Under the pieces are notes generated by a model that did no database searches, was not told the origin of the DNA, and saw nothing but the letters and a program-made list of their open reading frames with translations. From IMG/VR virus record IMGVR_UViG_3300027782_003694, positions 1-27,122 of that record: a stretch of 27,122 nt of DNA, one strand, 5' to 3'. Shown piece by piece: positions 6,626 to 23,072 of the stretch. Both the position numbers and the translations under genes were made by a program. Source of the stretch: a virus. The stretch's first letter is position 1. The number at the start of each line of letters is the position of its first letter.

Positions 6626-7231
6626 ATGAAAAATTTTCAACAATACCTCACTGAAAGTGAAAGAACCTACAATTATCGTATTAAAATTGTAGGTGATGTG
6701 GCTCCAGATTTTGTCAAGGCCTTAGAAGGCAAGCTCGCACAGTTTGACATTATAAAGATTAGCAAGCCAAAAACTACACCAGTTCAACTTAGTCCTGCTG
6801 ACTTTCCTAAGCACAGCAACGATAGTGTGACCAGTATGGACGTAGAATTTCGATATCCAGCCATTGAGCCACAGATCAAACAAATCGCTCAATTGTTGAT
6901 GATGGATCCAAACAGAATTATCATGTTGACCACACCACACGAAGAAGGTATGGACAGTGAACGTGAGCGTGTTGCCGCACAAAATAAAGATTTATTGGAT
7001 TCAGATTACCCTGCTGATACTCCAGAACAAAAAGCCCTGATTGCGGATTACTCGGCACCATATGATGAGCATGCAGTATTGAAAAACACATATCGTAGTG
7101 ACTTCACAGTGGCCGGTGGCAAAACACCGCCAGCAAAAACCACAAATGATTTGCCAATGGGCAATGCAAGCCCAATGACCAAGACAAAACGTCCACCACG
7201 TCCAGCCACTGGTGCCCAACCCCGAGGATAA
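6626..7231 (+). CDS. Probable packaged head protein with T4-like capsid-targeting N-terminus
   Basis: The product is 201 residues of unknown function. The first ten, MKNFQQYLTE, closely resemble the capsid-targeting peptide of T4 internal proteins (as I recall, MKTYQEFIAE in IPIII), where cleavage by the prohead protease follows the Glu of an (L/I)xE motif. Here that would be after Glu10. Residues 16-105 look like a compact alpha/beta domain with a repeated pattern (YNYRIKIVGDVAPDFVKALEG..., then SMDVEFRYPAIEPQIKQIAQ...). The C-terminal third is Pro/Lys/Thr-rich and probably disordered (TPPAKTTND, TKTKRPPRPA). It opens the block after gp16 behind a late-promoter-like octamer. Head localisation is inference. 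Confidence 0.6.
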   Translation: MKNFQQYLTESERTYNYRIKIVGDVAPDFVKALEGKLAQFDIIKISKPKTTPVQLSPADFPKHSNDSVTSMDVEFRYPAIEPQIKQIAQLLMMDPNRIIMLTTPHEEGMDSERERVAAQNKDLLDSDYPADTPEQKALIADYSAPYDEHAVLKNTYRSDFTVAGGKTPPAKTTNDLPMGNASPMTKTKRPPRPATGAQPRG

Positions 7232-9834: not shown

Positions 9835-10215
9835 ATGCGAGCCCGAGAGTTTATTGCCGAAGGCAGTAGAGGCGAAGTCAGGGCATCTGCCGCTCATGAC
9901 TTTGAAAAGGCACATCCTGGTATGGTTGGCCCGGGCGGCAAAGGCGATGTGTATTGGGGTCGTTACTACGATCATTATCGCGTAGCCACATTGGCTGGAA
10001 TGGGCCTAGACGAAATTGCCAACATGGACGAAATTGGATTTTTTGGCAACCTACCAATATTCAGTGCCTACACCGAACATGATCGCAAAAAACTTACAGC
10101 AATCATGAAAAAACTCAAGATGAAGCCTAAGGACTATGTCAGCACAGGCAGTCATGAATCAGACGATACCAACCACACAAGCCCAGTAACTGCGTTCAAG
10201 GGCTACGCAAAGTAA
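9835..10215 (+). CDS. MRAREF-family protein A (putative packaged internal protein)
   Basis: The product is 126 residues, the first of three divergent paralogues in this window (others at 11092 and 11487). Shared features are the N-terminus MRAREFIAEG, a middle YDHYRVATLAGMG, a following segment NLPIFSAYTEHDRKKLTAIMKKL, and the C-terminus SPVTAFKGYAK. The N-terminus resembles the T4 capsid-targeting peptide; cleavage after Glu9 of an IxE site would be expected for a prohead-protease substrate. The middle is Gly/aromatic-rich (GGKGDVYWGRYYDHYR). The function of the body is unknown. It is followed one base later by the Ntn-hydrolase-like gene. Confidence 0.6.
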   Translation: MRAREFIAEGSRGEVRASAAHDFEKAHPGMVGPGGKGDVYWGRYYDHYRVATLAGMGLDEIANMDEIGFFGNLPIFSAYTEHDRKKLTAIMKKLKMKPKDYVSTGSHESDDTNHTSPVTAFKGYAK

Positions 10216-10216
10216 C

Positions 10217-11095
10217 ATGTGCATAATCATCGCCAAATACTTTGACGGTATTGGATGGGCCGGTGCCAAAAATCGCGACCGTAACTATACACCTGTGCTA
10301 GACTTCATTGAATCAGACGAAGACGGCGTTGAACGTATGATGATGCACGATGAAATCACCGGCTACAAAGAAGGTATCAACAGCCACGGTATCAGTATCT
10401 TAAACACCAGCCTTGATGTGTATGACGATGAAAGCGAAGTAGATGCTGGCACCGCCAAGTCAAGCCCGGATGGACGAACTATCGCCGAGGCATTATCACA
10501 GAATAACGCACTAACGGCAGCAAAAATCATCGTCAAAAGAAAAATGGGTGGGTTTACCATGGTGTTCGATCATGACAATATGTACTTGATTGAAGCCAGT
10601 GATTGGGATGGAACCAAGCCCTATCAATACGTAGCAAAACGAGTGCCTAACGATCAAGTGGTCGCTAGATCCAATCACGGTGTTTGGTTGCCTGATGCAG
10701 GATATCAACGTCGACCCGATAATCGAAGCGAAACACTCAGTAGAATCAGCAGCGAAACTCGTCTGCTATTGGCTGAAGCTGTAGTAGAATCAGCTCAAGA
10801 TCCTGAAGATTTAGTGGATGGCATGTGTCAAGTTTACATCAATGACTCCCAGCTAAATATAATGAGGACCAGCACAGAAAAAAAGAAAATGCGGACTACT
10901 AGCCAGCAGTTATGTGTGCCCAAGGAGCGGACACTGTATTGCAGACCAGTCAGTAGTCACTCAAAATTTGATTTTTGGAGGCTTAATCGTCCCAACACCG
11001 GTGTCTGGGTTGAGATACTAAGTAATCGTGCTTTATGGCAGAACACCCAAGGTGATCCTCCGTTTGGTCAAATGAAACTAAAGGATGTAAAATGA
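10217..11095 (+). CDS. Putative N-terminal-nucleophile (Ntn) hydrolase
   Basis: The product is 292 residues. Cys2 directly follows the initiator Met, as in cysteine Ntn hydrolases, where removal of Met1 exposes the nucleophile. MCIIIAKYFDGIGWAGAKNRDRN matches the usual opening strand plus an Arg-Asp site (R20, D21). Downstream lie GINSHGISILNTSL (53-66) and VARSNHGVW (149-157), typical of penicillin-V-acylase/C45/NRDE-like folds where Asn residues build the oxyanion hole. Such enzymes cleave or transfer amide-linked acyl groups; the substrate here cannot be told. The C-terminal ~70 residues are basic and unlike the core. It is packed between two MRAREF genes (1-bp gap upstream, ATGA overlap downstream), so co-expression is certain. 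Fold moderately sure; activity inferred. Confidence 0.65.
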   Translation: MCIIIAKYFDGIGWAGAKNRDRNYTPVLDFIESDEDGVERMMMHDEITGYKEGINSHGISILNTSLDVYDDESEVDAGTAKSSPDGRTIAEALSQNNALTAAKIIVKRKMGGFTMVFDHDNMYLIEASDWDGTKPYQYVAKRVPNDQVVARSNHGVWLPDAGYQRRPDNRSETLSRISSETRLLLAEAVVESAQDPEDLVDGMCQVYINDSQLNIMRTSTEKKKMRTTSQQLCVPKERTLYCRPVSSHSKFDFWRLNRPNTGVWVEILSNRALWQNTQGDPPFGQMKLKDVK

Positions 11096-11490
11096 GAGCT
11101 CGTGAGTTTGTAGCAGAGGCAAAGTTTGGTTCAGCACAGGATGTGCCAGCCAACGCTAAAAAGTTACCAAATCATCAGGCCACAGCCATCAAGGGTGCTA
11201 TTAGCATGCCCGACATTAGTATGACCAAGCAAGGCGGCAGTCCTTATACACAATGGCGTTTTGGTATTGCTATGGCAGGTGCTCCTGACTTCCCGACAGA
11301 ACCAGCTGGTGCGTTTGCTGGCGACCCGCTATTGGCTACCTACACTGATGTAGAACTAGATATTATTAATGCTGCGGCCAAATCAGTTGGTGCCGGACAT
11401 GTTAAAAAACTCACAGACAATCGTAGCACTGAACACGAAGGTGTTTATAAAGTAAGCCCTGTTCGAGCGTTTAAAGGATATGGTAGATGA
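11092..11490 (+). CDS. MRAREF-family protein B (putative packaged internal protein)
   Basis: The product is 132 residues and paralogous to the proteins at 9835 and 11487. It begins MRAREFVAEAKFG (a VxE rather than IxE candidate cleavage site), has the middle motif YTQWRFGIAMAGA and the segment GDPLLATYTDVELDIINAAAKSVG, and ends SPVRAFKGYGR. It overlaps the Ntn-hydrolase-like gene by ATGA at its start and the next paralogue by ATGA at its end, implying translational coupling. AAAGGATG just upstream can serve as ribosome site. The function of the body is unknown. Confidence 0.6.
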   Translation: MRAREFVAEAKFGSAQDVPANAKKLPNHQATAIKGAISMPDISMTKQGGSPYTQWRFGIAMAGAPDFPTEPAGAFAGDPLLATYTDVELDIINAAAKSVGAGHVKKLTDNRSTEHEGVYKVSPVRAFKGYGR

Positions 11491-11873
11491 GAGCTCGAGA
11501 GTTTATCACTGAAGAAAAAACCTTGCCGTCGGAGCAGGCAGATCCTATGAATCATGTGTTTGTATTACCAGGAGTGCAATCCAGCGATCCATATCAAATC
11601 TATAGACTGGGTGTGGCCATGGCCCGTGCCCGAAGTAATGCAGGAACTGATGGTATTACCGATAAGTTACCTGCATGGTCAGCAGAAGCCGCGTTTGGCG
11701 AAGACGCTGTGATTGCAGGATTTAATGCCAGTGTTGAACCAATAATTGATCAAGCATTAAAAATGATAGGACTGCCCGATAAAAAAATACAAATAAGCAC
11801 ACCAAACAGTTTGGAACCTAAATCAGTAAATTATCAAAGTCCTGTAACAGGCTTTAAAGGCTATCCAAGATAA
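11487..11873 (+). CDS. MRAREF-family protein C (putative packaged internal protein)
   Basis: The product is 128 residues and the third paralogue. It begins MRAREFITEE, has the middle motif YQIYRLGVAMARA, the segment EDAVIAGFNASVEPIIDQALKMIG and the C-terminus SPVTGFKGYPR. The first 18 bases are almost identical to those of copy B (ATGAGAGCTCG then GAGTTT), while the bodies are diverged, so either the ends are under strong constraint or the duplication is old. The gene ends in a TAATG overlap with the next small gene. Packaging into the head is inferred from the N-terminus only. Confidence 0.6.
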   Translation: MRAREFITEEKTLPSEQADPMNHVFVLPGVQSSDPYQIYRLGVAMARARSNAGTDGITDKLPAWSAEAAFGEDAVIAGFNASVEPIIDQALKMIGLPDKKIQISTPNSLEPKSVNYQSPVTGFKGYPR

Positions 11874-12173: not shown

Positions 12174-12887
12174 ATGAAAAAATTACTTTTAATATTACTC
12201 TTTACACCATTATTGTCTGTAGCACAGATCAACGCTCAATGTCCACAGTTCACGGCCAACGGCACACCCGAGTATCAAGCCCAACCCGGCGACCAAGAGT
12301 TATGCAAAACAAACTACGCTGTAATCCATCGTTGCTCAGTCAAAGCACCTGTGGCAGTGTTTGAACGGTTGACCATGGCCGCAATGACTGGTCCTGCCAA
12401 ACGAAAGAATGACTTCCGTCCAGATCCTGCTGTTACACCCAACTGCTCGGCCACTTTGGCCGACTATGCCACAGTGGGCCGCACACACGATCGCGGACAC
12501 ATGGCACCTGCTGGTAACAACACACAGAATGATGCTATCATGTCAGAGTCATTCTTCCTGTCAAACATGGTAGCACAAGTGGCCAACAACAATCGTGGTG
12601 CGTGGCGTTTATTAGAATCTGCTGAACGTCAATGGGCCGCACAACCTGGCACAGATTTTTATATCATTAGTGGTGGCATTTATGATCAAGGGCACCCTGT
12701 GGTAGGGAACGGTCTTGGCATTCCTACTCGCCTATACAAAATCATTATTGAAAAAAATAGTCGTCAAGTTCAGGCCTATCTAATGCCTAATGGCCCTATC
12801 AACCCAGCAACAGATTGGCCTAAGTATCAAACAAATATGGCTACCATTGAACAAGCTACTGGGATGAAATTTAACTTAGGGCAATAA
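12174..12887 (+). CDS. Exported DNA/RNA non-specific endonuclease (NUC1/EndoG-Serratia nuclease family)
   Basis: The ATG at 12174 (MKKLLLILLFTPLLSVAQINAQ) is preferred over an in-frame ATG at 12153 because it gives a clean signal peptide: two Lys, then a hydrophobic core, with likely cleavage after Ala17 or Ala21. The 237-residue product has the family signature: DRGHMAP (106-112) with catalytic His109, then SNMVAQVANNNRGAWRLLE (130-148), carrying the metal-ligand Asn and the helix that normally follows. Four Cys (23, 44, 54, 91) fit disulfides in an oxidising compartment. These enzymes cut DNA and RNA without sequence preference using Mg2+. Export would keep it away from the phage's own DNA until secretion or lysis. 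Family very sure; destination inferred. Confidence 0.88.
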   Translation: MKKLLLILLFTPLLSVAQINAQCPQFTANGTPEYQAQPGDQELCKTNYAVIHRCSVKAPVAVFERLTMAAMTGPAKRKNDFRPDPAVTPNCSATLADYATVGRTHDRGHMAPAGNNTQNDAIMSESFFLSNMVAQVANNNRGAWRLLESAERQWAAQPGTDFYIISGGIYDQGHPVVGNGLGIPTRLYKIIIEKNSRQVQAYLMPNGPINPATDWPKYQTNMATIEQATGMKFNLGQ

Positions 12888-12951: not shown

Positions 12952-13575
12952 ATGATATTTAACAAAAAACACCCACCATCTGGTTATTATGTTTATGCTT
13001 ATCTACGAAAGTCTAACCTAACACCTTATTATATAGGTAAGGGCAAAGATATTAGGGCAGTTGAAAAACATAATATTACGGTTCCAAAAGATTCTACCAA
13101 GATAATCATCCTTGAATCTAATTTAACAGAAATTGGAGCATTTGCCATTGAGCGTAGGCTCATACAATGGTGGGGTCGTAAAGACATTAACACCGGTATT
13201 CTTTTAAACAAGACAGACGGAGGTGACGGTGCATCCGGACGCATAGCAAAGAAAGGTGCAGAATCTCCGCTGTATGGCAGAAAGCGTCCAGAATTTAGTA
13301 AGATGCTGACCGGAAAAAAACGACCAGAACATGCAGAAACAATGAAAGGTCGCATGGCCGGCAAACAAAATCCACGCTTTGGAAAACCTGGAACATTTGC
13401 AGGAAAAACTCACAGCGAAGAAGCATTGGCTAAAATGCGTAAACCAACAGGCCCTCATTTAAAACAACGAGAGCCTTTAACTTGTCCACACTGTCAAAAA
13501 ACTGCCGATTCAAGTAATGCCAAACGTTGGCATTTTAATAACTGTAAACTCAAAACACTCATAATTACAATATGA
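12952..13575 (+). CDS. GIY-YIG homing endonuclease with NUMOD3-like repeats and C-terminal zinc finger
   Basis: ATG 12952 ([15 protein letters not shown]) is chosen because AAGGAG at 12938-12943 precedes it by 8 nt; an in-frame GTG at 12943 would overlap that site. The product is 207 residues. The GIY-YIG nuclease domain is at ~10-90: [10 protein letters not shown]...PYYIGKG, then an Arg in KGKDIRA and a Glu in [12 protein letters not shown]. Next come NUMOD3-type DNA-binding repeats ([40 protein letters not shown]). The end carries CPHCQ...HFNNC, a C2HC-type zinc finger. Such enzymes spread their own gene by cutting cognate sites, as Seg proteins and I-TevI do in T4. It is free-standing, with no intron visible, and overlaps the radical SAM gene by ATGA. 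Confidence 0.88.
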
Positions 13576-14708
13576 GCAATTTCTACTGTGCAGCCCCTTG
13601 GCGAGGCTTGCATATCAATCCACGTGGTGACGTTAAAACCTGCTGTGCCGGTAATCCTAACATGCTGGGCAATCTAAACAACAAAGGCATAGAAGAAATT
13701 TTAGACGGCCCTGTACTAAAAGAAATTAGATCTGCGTTACAACGAGGACATACACACCCGTATTGCATAAATTGTGTGGATCGCGAAAGCAAGGGCAGTG
13801 ACAGTGAACGTACCTGGCACAACAATATCAATTCAGGGTTTGATACTCGTAACGCTGGCATAGATTACCAATACCCTACCCTATTAGACATACGCTGGAA
13901 CAGCACTTGTAATCTCAGTTGTAACTATTGCAGTCCTGCAGACAGTTCTAAATGGGCCGCTTTGAAAAAAATTCCAATAAACAACAATACCAAAAATTAT
14001 TATTTAGAAGTTTGTGATTTTATTGAAAAAAATCATCAACACGTAAAAGAAGTTGCATTGGTCGGCGGCGAACCTTTATTGTTACCAGAAAATGACCGCC
14101 TGTTAGATGTGATACCCGCAGATGCAGTAATAACTATTATAACCAATCTTAACACCCCGCTGGAAAACAATAGCATATTTAAAAAATTAGCACAACGCCG
14201 TCGAGTAGGATGGTCAATGAGTTTTGACAACATTGGCCCTAGATTTGAATATGTACGATCGGGTGCCAACTGGGATCTTCAACTACACAATCTTGATCTC
14301 GTACAGGATTTAATCAAAAATAATGGACACTGGGGTGGCCTACATGCAGTATATAATCTATACAATGCCACTAGACTAGTTGAGTTTAAACAGTTTGCCA
14401 CTGCACGTGGATTATCAATTAAATGGCAAAATTTGGATGGCCCTAAACTATTGGATCCACGAGTATACGGAAAAGAAATTGCTAGATTGGCCGCAGAAGA
14501 AATCAACCGTGTATTTGAAAGTTGTATCATAGATGATGAAGAACAGCTTTTATTTAAAACTGCCCTTGGACAATATCAATCTGTAACAGACAATAGCACA
14601 TCCGCTCTAGTAGAATTAAAAAAATTCATTGAACAAATTGAACAGTATCACCCTGACCAGCAAGGAAAGTTTCATGAACTATGGCCCGAAATAAGTAGTT
14701 TATTATGA
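13572..14708 (+). CDS. Radical SAM protein with N-terminal twitch/SPASM-like Cys cluster (1)
   Basis: The product is 378 residues. The radical SAM cluster motif CNLSCNYC is at 113-120 (Cys113, 117, 120 ligate the SAM-binding 4Fe-4S cluster), and GGEP at 165-168 is the usual SAM-contact motif. The N-terminus carries a second Cys set, FYCAAPW (C6), TCCAGN (C24, C25) and YCINCVD (C65, C68), in the pattern of SPASM/twitch auxiliary-cluster domains but placed before the radical SAM core. SPASM/twitch enzymes mostly modify peptides or proteins, but the substrate here is unknown. The gene overlaps both neighbours by ATGA, just before the large terminase. A second protein with the same layout is at 21954. 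Family very sure, function unknown. Confidence 0.85.
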
Positions 14709-16270
14709 GTCAAACTGAATCAACCTTAGTCAAAGCACCGTATCGTCGACACCACTGGACCGATGAGCAATTGGCTGAGTTTATGGCCTGTGCCGATCCT
14801 GCCACCGGTCCGCAGTATTTTATGGATCACTTCTTTCATATACAACATCCTACCAAAGGTAAAATGCTGTATCATCCGTTCGACTATCAAAAACGTCTGA
14901 TCAACACCTATCATAACTATCGCTATTCTATCTCAATGATGCCGCGACAAACTGGTAAGAGCACCAGTGCCGCCGGATACCTGCTATGGATGGCCATGTT
15001 CCGTCCTGACAGTACGATTCTTATTGCTGCTCACAAGTATACAGGCTCGCAAGAGATCATGCAACGTATCCGTTATGCTTATGAACTATGCCCAGATCAT
15101 ATCCGTGCAGGTGTTACCAGTTACAACAAAGGTAATTTGGACTTTGAAAACGGAAGCCGTATAGTTTCAACTACCACAACAGAAAACACCGGTCGTGGTA
15201 TGAGTATTACACTACTGTACTGTGACGAGTTTGCGTTCGTGCGACCCACCATAGCCAGAGAATTCTGGACCAGTATCAGCCCTACACTGGCCACAGGTGG
15301 TAAGGCAATTATCACAAGTACACCAAACAGTGATGAAGATCAGTTTGCGTTACTGTGGAAAGGTGCTCTTAAATGCGAAGACAGCTATGGCAATCCTACC
15401 GAGTTAGGCATGAATGGATTTCGAGCCTATCGTAGCTATTGGAATGAGCATCCAGATCGTGATGAAACCTGGGCCGCAGAACAGCGGGCACAACTAGGTG
15501 ATGATCGTTTCCGTCGTGAGATGGGTTGCGAATTTATCATCAACGATGAAACACTCATAGCTCCAGCCAAGCTCCTAGACCTACGAGGACACGAACCTCT
15601 GTATAAAACTGGACAGGTACGATGGTACCAGCGACCTAAAAAAGATCGCATTTATGTAGTCTCTTTAGATCCTAGTCTGGGCACTGGCGGTGACCCTGCA
15701 GCTATACAAGTGTTTGAAGCCAATACCACAGAACAAGTAGCTGAATGGCGTCATAATCGAACCACTATACCTGAACAAGTGCGTATTCTGGCTGACATTG
15801 TGCGTCACTTGAATGAGACAGTACAAGATCCTCAACAAATTTACTACAGTATTGAAAATAATACCATTGGCGAAGCTGCTCTAATAAGCATAGCCGAATT
15901 TGGAGAAGAAAATATTCCCGGCTATTTCCTCAGTGAACCTGGCGGTGGCGGAAGCCGCAGATACCGCAAAGGATTTAATACCACAAACAAACCCAAACTA
16001 GCGGCCTGCAACAAGCTGAAAATACTAATAGAAACTGGCCGCATGAAAATACGCAGTAGCGGGTTAGTCAGCGAACTTAAAACTTTTGTAGCACACGGTG
16101 TGGGCTATGCCGCTAAACCGGGCGAAACTGATGATCTTGTCATGAGTACAATTTTAGCCGTGCGTATGATGCAGTTGCTACAAACATTCCACGTAGAAAT
16201 GGATGTACAAATGCGAGATCACGGCGATCAAATTGAACCGCCCATGCCATTCATTACCACGCGGTTCTAG
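14705..16270 (+). CDS. gp17: Terminase large subunit (T4 gp17-like)
   Basis: The product is 521 residues, shorter than T4 gp17 (610). It is the ATP-driven packaging motor and headful nuclease. ATPase motifs: Walker A-like RQTGKST (81-87), Walker B LLYCDEF (170-176) with the catalytic Glu, and coupling motif TSTPN (204-208). RNase-H-like nuclease: SLDPSLGTGGDPA (first Asp 322), YYSIENN (Glu 384) and GETDDLVM (Asp 476/477). An N-terminal HPFDYQKRLI supplies the adenine-binding Q-motif type segment. It overlaps the radical SAM gene by ATGA. In T4 it follows gp16 and precedes the sheath gene; here gp16 is 8.1 kb upstream and the sheath lies before gp16. Confidence 0.95.
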   Translation: MSQTESTLVKAPYRRHHWTDEQLAEFMACADPATGPQYFMDHFFHIQHPTKGKMLYHPFDYQKRLINTYHNYRYSISMMPRQTGKSTSAAGYLLWMAMFRPDSTILIAAHKYTGSQEIMQRIRYAYELCPDHIRAGVTSYNKGNLDFENGSRIVSTTTTENTGRGMSITLLYCDEFAFVRPTIAREFWTSISPTLATGGKAIITSTPNSDEDQFALLWKGALKCEDSYGNPTELGMNGFRAYRSYWNEHPDRDETWAAEQRAQLGDDRFRREMGCEFIINDETLIAPAKLLDLRGHEPLYKTGQVRWYQRPKKDRIYVVSLDPSLGTGGDPAAIQVFEANTTEQVAEWRHNRTTIPEQVRILADIVRHLNETVQDPQQIYYSIENNTIGEAALISIAEFGEENIPGYFLSEPGGGGSRRYRKGFNTTNKPKLAACNKLKILIETGRMKIRSSGLVSELKTFVAHGVGYAAKPGETDDLVMSTILAVRMMQLLQTFHVEMDVQMRDHGDQIEPPMPFITTRF

Positions 16271-21715: not shown

Positions 21716-21967
21716 ATGTCAGTAGAATTAGCAAAAGAAATCTGGGATGAACTCAAGCGATATGTAAACACAGTGGACCGTGACGAAGCTGCCGAAACAT
21801 TAGTAAGTGTGTTGATTGACAACGACGCAGATGCTGATGAAATTAAAACAGTATTTAAAAGCGACAGCGAAGTTAAAAAAGCACTTGCTAGCTACCTCAA
21901 AGATCACGAAGAAGATGATGAAGACGAAGATGATGATGAGGACGACTACGAGGATGAGGATTATTGA
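21716..21967 (+). CDS. Small highly acidic protein after UvsX
   Basis: The product is 83 residues. Residues 1-60 look helical (MSVELAKEIWDELKRYVN; DEAAETLVSVLIDNDADADE; KSDSEVKKALASYLKD), followed by an almost unbroken Asp/Glu tail with Tyr (EDDEDEDDDEDDYEDEDY). The charge suggests DNA mimicry or binding of a basic protein such as UvsX, UvsY or gp32, but no function can be assigned. It starts 3 bases after uvsX and overlaps the second radical SAM gene by 14 bases. Small acidic proteins after uvsX are a familiar look in T4-like phages of aquatic bacteria, in my recollection. Confidence 0.6.
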   Translation: MSVELAKEIWDELKRYVNTVDRDEAAETLVSVLIDNDADADEIKTVFKSDSEVKKALASYLKDHEEDDEDEDDDEDDYEDEDY

Positions 21968-23072
21968 TAATCAATATTATTGTTCACAAAAATTTTGGTG
22001 GATGACAGTAGAGCCAGAACGGCGATCTATAGCTTCGTGTTGTGCTGCTACTCCAGAAAAAATAGATTTGTCTTGGTTAAAAACTAATTCAGGGCAGTTG
22101 TTTAATATGCCTACCCTAATATCTGAACGAGAAGCAATGTTAAATAATCAACCTGTAGTTAGTTGTGAAAATACTTGCTGGAGTGCGGAACGTGTTGGAT
22201 TACCAAGTCGCCGTACCAAAATGTTGTCAAGTGTGCGTACACACACGGATGTAGTGTCTAGTCCATCTACACTACATATTAACCTAGGTAGTGATTGTAA
22301 TTTAACTTGCAGCTACTGTACCAAACAATACAGTACAGCATGGTTGCGTGATATTGATACAAACGGTCCATATTTAAATGAAACCCGTTTCCAAATTAAC
22401 AACAACGATCGTGTTGTTTTAAAATTAGGACAAAAAGCAATTAAATCTAGTGACAGCTATCAGTTAATAGTGAATGAAATACGCAACATTAAAACTGCCA
22501 ATCAAATTGAAATCACCGGCGGGGAACCATTTTTGTACAACGGACTAACAGAACTAGTTAATAGCCTGACAGGACCAGTGGACATATTTACTGGACTTGG
22601 TGTTGATACCAAAAGGCTAGAACGAATTTTAGATACATTACCAGATACTGTGACGTTTACAGTTAGTGCTGAAAATGTCGGCGAACTGTACGAGTTTAAT
22701 AGGTACGGTAACACCTGGTCTAATTTTTTAACAAATTTAGAACTGATACAAAAAAGATTTAATCATCGGTTTTGTACAGTAGTAAGTAATTTAACTATTC
22801 ACGGTTTAGAAAAATTTCGCAAACAGTTTGGTACCAAACAAGATTTAATTAATTTATGCACAGATCCAAATTATTTAAGTGCCAGTGTATTAGACACAGA
22901 AAGTAAAATATTATATCAATCGACTATGCCAGATTTACTAGACACTGTTACGGTAGAATATACAGCAGAACAAAAAGAAAAATTACGTAAATATCTTTAT
23001 CGTTTTGTTGAAATTAGAAATTTAAATTTGCAGATTTTTCCTGCACATTTTATTAATTGGATCAATGAATAA
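21954..23072 (+). CDS. Radical SAM protein with N-terminal twitch/SPASM-like Cys cluster (2)
   Basis: From ATG 21954 (MRIIDNQYYCSQKFWW) the product is 372 residues. Longer in-frame starts (from 21816) would run through the acidic gene and give a Lys/Met/Thr repeat artefact. The radical SAM motif CNLTCSYC is at 115-122 and GGEP at 189-192. N-terminal Cys are C10, C29-C30, C71 and C75, the same layout as the protein at 13572 (C6, C24-C25, C65, C68), so the two share a domain plan. The rest is diverged. The gene sits between the acidic gene and uvsY and is visibly more AT-rich than uvsX, which suggests insertion. Substrate unknown; a peptide or protein is likely by analogy to SPASM/twitch enzymes. 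Confidence 0.82.
   Translation: MRIIDNQYYCSQKFWWMTVEPERRSIASCCAATPEKIDLSWLKTNSGQLFNMPTLISEREAMLNNQPVVSCENTCWSAERVGLPSRRTKMLSSVRTHTDVVSSPSTLHINLGSDCNLTCSYCTKQYSTAWLRDIDTNGPYLNETRFQINNNDRVVLKLGQKAIKSSDSYQLIVNEIRNIKTANQIEITGGEPFLYNGLTELVNSLTGPVDIFTGLGVDTKRLERILDTLPDTVTFTVSAENVGELYEFNRYGNTWSNFLTNLELIQKRFNHRFCTVVSNLTIHGLEKFRKQFGTKQDLINLCTDPNYLSASVLDTESKILYQSTMPDLLDTVTVEYTAEQKEKLRKYLYRFVEIRNLNLQIFPAHFINWINE

Follow-up and report, generated by a model that had tools for sequence, protein, structure and literature searches.

The three small genes designated P1, P2 and P3, which lie in a 27,122-base virus record (the whole stretch of DNA that was analysed, referred to here as the "window"), quite probably encode members of an old paralogous family of proteins of about 13 kDa that reside inside the heads of T4-like, often jumbo, phages and that carry a leader of the T4 type. 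The N-terminal tag that makes up this leader is modular and occurs on non-homologous bodies: phages of this kind also carry the pattern MRAxEF[ILV]xE on at least 25 proteins that do not belong to the family.

The gene content of the window is that of a T4-like phage, with a tail sheath, two tail tube proteins, a gp4-type head closure protein and a gp17-type terminase, as well as a single-strand binding protein, UvsX and UvsY. P1, P2 and P3 form an array within the late virion-gene cluster, between the sheath-tube block and the terminase, and all three are encoded on the + strand. P1 (P0001; 9835..10215; group A in the classification given below) has the leader MRAREFIAE (9835..9861), a predicted capsid-targeting sequence with a predicted cut after Glu9, followed by a YYDHYR helix and the C-terminal SPVTAFKGYAK. 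P2 (P0002; 11092..11490; group B) combines the leader MRAREFVAE (11092..11118), also a predicted capsid-targeting sequence, with SPYTQWRFGIAMAGAP and the C-terminal SPVRAFKGYGR, and P3 (P0003; 11487..11873; group C) combines the leader MRAREFITE (11487..11513), likewise predicted to target the capsid, with DPYQIYRLGVAMARA and the C-terminal SPVTGFKGYPR. The initial annotation had described three open reading frames of 126-132 residues with the shared ends MRAREF[IV]xE and SPVxxFKGYx[KR], and both the lengths (126, 132 and 128 amino acids) and the ends are confirmed.

The starts of P2 and P3 overlap the stop of the preceding gene (ATGA). Between P1 and P2 lies a + strand gene (10217..11095) for an Ntn-hydrolase-like protein with a Met-Cys start, the Cys after Met being a possible N-terminal nucleophile. 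This protein has a weak match to the Pfam family AAT (E=0.039), and relatives of it with 35% identity are encoded by the Chryseobacterium phages MA9V-1/2; its gene is present in 42 of the related loci described below, and a group A gene is present in 42/42 of these. The gp17-type large terminase (14705..16270, + strand) lies downstream of the array in the window, and a terminase is found downstream of the array in 53 loci. An Endonuclease_NS (DNA/RNA non-specific endonuclease) with a signal-like hydrophobic start is also encoded downstream of the array, at 12177-12887, and the late region contains two radical-SAM-like open reading frames (13572-14708 and 21816-23072), the motifs of which were judged by eye only.

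Judged by sequence comparison, P1, P2 and P3 are real paralogues, that is, old duplicates of one gene (BLASTP gives E=5e-14 for P2 against P3 and E=2e-6 for P1 against P3). A search for proteins with both end motifs, which the initial annotation had proposed, did uncover relatives in uncultivated T4-like phages of IMG/VR: the scan yielded 205 stretches that code for relatives, 80 loci (denoted here by L numbers) were kept from these, and a profile search of these loci and the window identified 205 family ORFs, mostly 2-4 per locus. The carriers found are all uncultivated, T4-like and often jumbo phages, known mostly from fragments, and each of 20 longer contigs has 1-4 family members. A tree and group profiles divide the family into six ortholog groups, A (P1), B (P2), C (P3), D, E and F. 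Two members of one group occur together in only 2 loci, while gene orders differ between loci (ABC, DAB, DE and ED are all found) and group content differs from phage to phage.

When the groups were trimmed of the first 10 residues and of the C-terminal motif, 14 of the 15 pairs were still aligned by hhalign at a probability of 92-99.9%, and reversed controls reached at most 2%; the remaining pair, A-C, scored 19%, though A and C each match the other groups. Since the trimmed bodies are still homologous, the family consists of one duplicated domain and not of two fixed ends on unrelated bodies. The earlier description of the regions outside the shared motifs as highly diverged holds between the three paralogues, but not against their own orthologues, where these regions are well conserved: P1 shares about 60-79% identity with many of its IMG/VR orthologues, and the mean identity within group B is 75%.

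The exact conservation percentages are biased upward, because the seeds were picked with both end motifs and the collection scan used the same motifs (neighbouring copies were added by profile, not by motif), and it is with this bias that the figures for the leader in 146 distinct relatives (M1 and E9 146/146 each, R2, A3 and F6 145 each, and E at position 5 in 144/146 with D in 2) and for a 99-sequence alignment (in P2 numbering, E114, S122, F127 and G129 invariant, and Y52, R56, S112, P123 and Y130 at least 90% conserved) are to be read. The middle motif noticed in the initial annotation, to which Y52 and R56 belong, is thus real.

The strict MRAxEF pattern produced 59 matches in 20 long phage contigs and 0 in a reversed control. 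Fetching 18 matches that appeared to lie outside the family gave 16 full-length non-family proteins, one family member and one 19-codon ORF; among the 16, the protein of L291 is the same gene as that of L176. A scan of IMG/VR for MRAxEF-type starts found at least 88 proteins in newly fetched loci, at least 74 of them in the family and at least 14 outside it. In the 80 related loci, 70 non-family ORFs fit a leader pattern, and 68/70 group into three conserved clusters, every one of them on the gene strand. The domains carried by tagged proteins include GNAT (L176, L174, L184, L281 and L282), LysM-SLT, DUF6321 and DUF6934. Tagged cargo can share a contig, and even an array, with the family: the tagged GNAT of L176 is on the same contig as the D-A-B array of L021, a tagged DUF6321 protein lies inside the family array of L010, and in L074 two family genes are directly followed by a non-homologous gene of 280 aa, all three of them tagged. 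The last of these (L074:991-1833) starts MRAKEFLSE and was assigned to no family. In L184 a tagged LysM-transglycosylase (413-1294), in which MRASEFIAE is followed by a twin-arginine-like stretch, adjoins the tagged GNAT (1299-1664), and the 19-codon ORF (L292:1-57) begins where a tagged GNAT gene ends and may be a decayed gene, a sequencing error or chance. Weak scores of the family profiles on other tagged proteins and on the T4 internal proteins derive from the leader, in searches of tiny databases, and were not counted as homology.

The leader appears to be conserved as a peptide. The codons at leader positions 3-9 vary synonymously, which indicates that selection acts on the peptide; conservation of the start at the DNA level through ATGA coupling was considered and accounts for Arg2 alone, Arg2 being partly tied to the ATGA start-stop overlap (121/146). 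The concern that MRAREF might be a general start motif, raised when the family was first noticed, is answered by a search of 257 Gb of cellular genomes, run with A1, in which 13 stretches match either end pattern and 0 are relatives.

In T4, cleavage sites favour Leu or Ile two residues before the cut Glu. The family leader ends in a similar (L/I)xE-like pattern, position 7 being Ile in 100, Val in 35, Leu in 7 and Met in 4 of the 146 members; Val or Met at this position (P2 has Val) departs from the strict T4 rule. According to the T4 record, IpII and IpIII start MKTYQEFIAE, and P1 starts MRAREFIAE, so that EFIAE is common to both. The first ten residues of IPIII are its capsid-targeting sequence as defined by experiment and suffice for head entry, and its residues 8 and 10 govern the cut (PMC9026906). 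The capsid-targeting sequence is described as the conserved part of the otherwise diverse T-even internal proteins (PMC3012670). The processing machinery was read from relatives, the 27 kb window being without gp21 or gp23. Peptidase_S77, the gp21-type prohead protease, is encoded in 8/12 large contigs of relatives, including 6/6 of those over 220 kb. The gp23 propeptide, with its cleavage site placed by the motif, appears to end in YL[KR]E before NA[ST] in 6/8 records, the remaining two having HLKE and LLSE; this end immediately precedes the conserved body. The T4-style capsid-targeting reading offered in the initial annotation is therefore supported both by the presence of the same nonapeptide on non-homologous proteins, with EFIAE in common with IpII and IpIII, and by the T4-type prohead protease and the gp23 with a fitting motif that relatives encode.

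Two further conserved families with T4-like leaders (e.g. MKNFQQYLTE and MKTLKDYLSE) occur in 48 and 18 loci. The window contains a protein (6626..7231, + strand), non-homologous to P1-P3, of the family that has such a leader in 48 loci; it starts MKNFQQYLTES. Atu_ph07 has MKTLQDYLTES. The homologue in PA5oct, EST35_0202, is annotated as a structural protein detected by ESI-MS/MS, but it starts MKSFRDYYDAS and is without the xxE site, which counts against the preferred explanation given below.

The C-terminal motif behaves differently from the leader. The SPVxxFKGY end was found on no non-family ORF among the 80 loci and on none of the other tagged proteins, and it is modelled at a confidence like that of the body, whereas the N-terminus is modelled at low confidence. 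The proposal that the conserved C-terminus is a "packaging" end is for these reasons not supported: the motif is part of the family's single domain and does not serve as a packaging end in general. The conserved SxE that precedes the motif was considered as a further protease site and set aside, because Pro often follows the Glu and the hydrophobic residue two positions before it is missing.

Structure prediction had been suggested for all three bodies; P1 and P2 were modelled as helical, and a search of the PDB by fold found no match. In AlphaFold2 models (mean pLDDT 83 and pTM 0.58 for P2, 78 and 0.43 for P1) both are small and helical, and the YxxYR motif marks the start of the first of their two main helices; the fold is provisional because the models are of moderate confidence. 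Certainty is lowest over residues 1-20 in both (54-64), compared with about 77-84 for the C-terminal motif, and in P2 the leader has a pLDDT of about 60 against 79-94 in the body. In BFVD the models of P2 (8e-4) and P1 (6e-3) both rank the uncultured-phage protein A0A6J5KNQ7 first, and on the strength of these model matches it is probably a member of the family. The best PDB match by sequence (0.059) was judged to be chance, Pfam and PHROGs gave nothing convincing for the family (the best PHROGs match among 99 members, 0.00087, involved one member alone), and none of the 50,697 named phage records searched with four family queries contained a relative.

Three other accounts of these proteins must be weighed. 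That they are ordinary paralogues, unpackaged, which share their start by common descent and resemble the T4 capsid-targeting sequence by coincidence, seems improbable. The homology of the bodies does mean that a common start within the family needs no special cause, and Arg2 is partly tied to the ATGA overlap (121/146 members), but against this account stand the appearance of the same nonapeptide on many non-homologous bodies, the 59 matches against 0 in the reversed control, the EFIAE common to T4 and the family, and an N-terminus that is of low confidence and separable in both models. The view taken in the initial annotation, a fast-diversifying family of injected counter-defence proteins with packaging signals at both ends, is very doubtful, although T4 IPI does act in such a way, the three paralogues are divergent with fixed ends, and group content varies between phages. 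Its second packaging signal is contradicted by the absence of the C-terminal motif from other tagged proteins, and its changing bodies by bodies that are homologous and conserved within groups. Median dN against loci L001-L030 was 0.185 for P2 and 0.269 for P1, compared with 0.216 for gp17 and 0.26 for gp4; dS is saturated in this comparison, so no claim is made about dN/dS. The figure of 0.489 for P3 includes non-orthologues; P3 is 82% identical to its true orthologue in L006 and 79% to that in L007, the gp17 of L006 being 75% identical. With orthologues this stable and a median dN for P2 below that of the terminase, the sequence pattern does not look like rapid diversification, the bodies within groups appearing to evolve about as slowly as the terminase.

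The same slow evolution, close in rate to that of gp4 and gp17, speaks for a reading in which the proteins are packaged and cleaved but have a morphogenetic purpose, as prohead core components that shape a large head in the manner of T4 gp67/gp68 and, in part, IPIII. This possibility shares its packaging step with the preferred explanation, needs no action on the host, and deserves some weight without being likely; it agrees with the 2-4 members found in most loci and with the head assembly defects of T4 IPIII mutants (PMC9026906). Against it stand a tag that is also carried by enzymes (GNAT, LysM-SLT), which would be odd parts of a scaffold, and a set of groups that varies from phage to phage.

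According to the preferred explanation, that of packaged internal proteins, the first nine residues, MRAxEF[IV]xE, would bind the prohead scaffolding core as the T4 capsid-targeting sequence does, and the phage's gp21-type prohead protease would then cut after Glu9 and release the mature body in the head. These two steps are strongly indicated, and packaging with cleavage is very likely. The mature proteins may then stay associated with the DNA in the head and accompany it into the cell at infection; this step is moderately indicated, and injection of the putative internal proteins with the DNA is somewhat likely. It can be speculated that each ortholog group has a conserved target on which it acts, either in the host or in DNA. 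The stability of the groups points to conserved targets or to a structural duty of the body, and evolution this slow speaks against a fast arms race; a putative anti-defence role is unlikely.

The head contents and injected proteins of phages are usually learned one virion at a time. On balance, MRAxEF[ILV]xE appears to be a clade-wide head-import address, from which the injected set of uncultivated T4-like jumbo phages could be read in sequence as a six-group core family together with a cargo that shifts between phages and comprises acetyltransferases, a peptidoglycan enzyme, DUF6321 and DUF6934 proteins, and unknown proteins. If the nonapeptide is an import signal, head cargo can be found by sequence search across uncultivated phages, and candidates for effectors of the first minute could be listed at once, among them a small, widespread protein family without a known fold.

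The closest known system is that of the T4 internal proteins IpI, IpII and IpIII, which are likewise small and several per phage, which in IpII and IpIII have a leader of about ten residues ending in EFIAE, and which have the counterpart of their T4-type protease in the family's relatives. The family differs in its nine-residue leader, MRAREF[IV]xE, in bodies that form one conserved domain with no detectable relation to the T4 proteins (on which the family profiles score at most 10.9 bits, derived from the leader), in its conserved C-terminal SPVxxFKGY, in the mild acidity of groups C, D and F where the T4 proteins are basic, and in its occurrence in uncultivated, often jumbo, phages. The giant phages of the SPN3US/phiKZ type also package many ejected proteins, some of them cut by a prohead protease (PMC5694885, PMC10052503), but in the carriers described here the capsid protein is of the gp23 type and Peptidase_S77 is encoded. 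T4 Alt and the polyvalent proteins are enzymes thought to enter the host with the phage DNA, as the tagged enzymes may do. GNAT, found among the tagged cargo, is listed by Iyer et al. (2017, PMC5512222) as one of the polyvalent-protein domains, and the interior of a very long phage protein family, phrog_10691, of 3925 positions, is matched by one tagged GNAT. A polyvalent protein is, however, one giant polypeptide, whereas each tagged domain forms a small protein by itself, with the short leader common to all.
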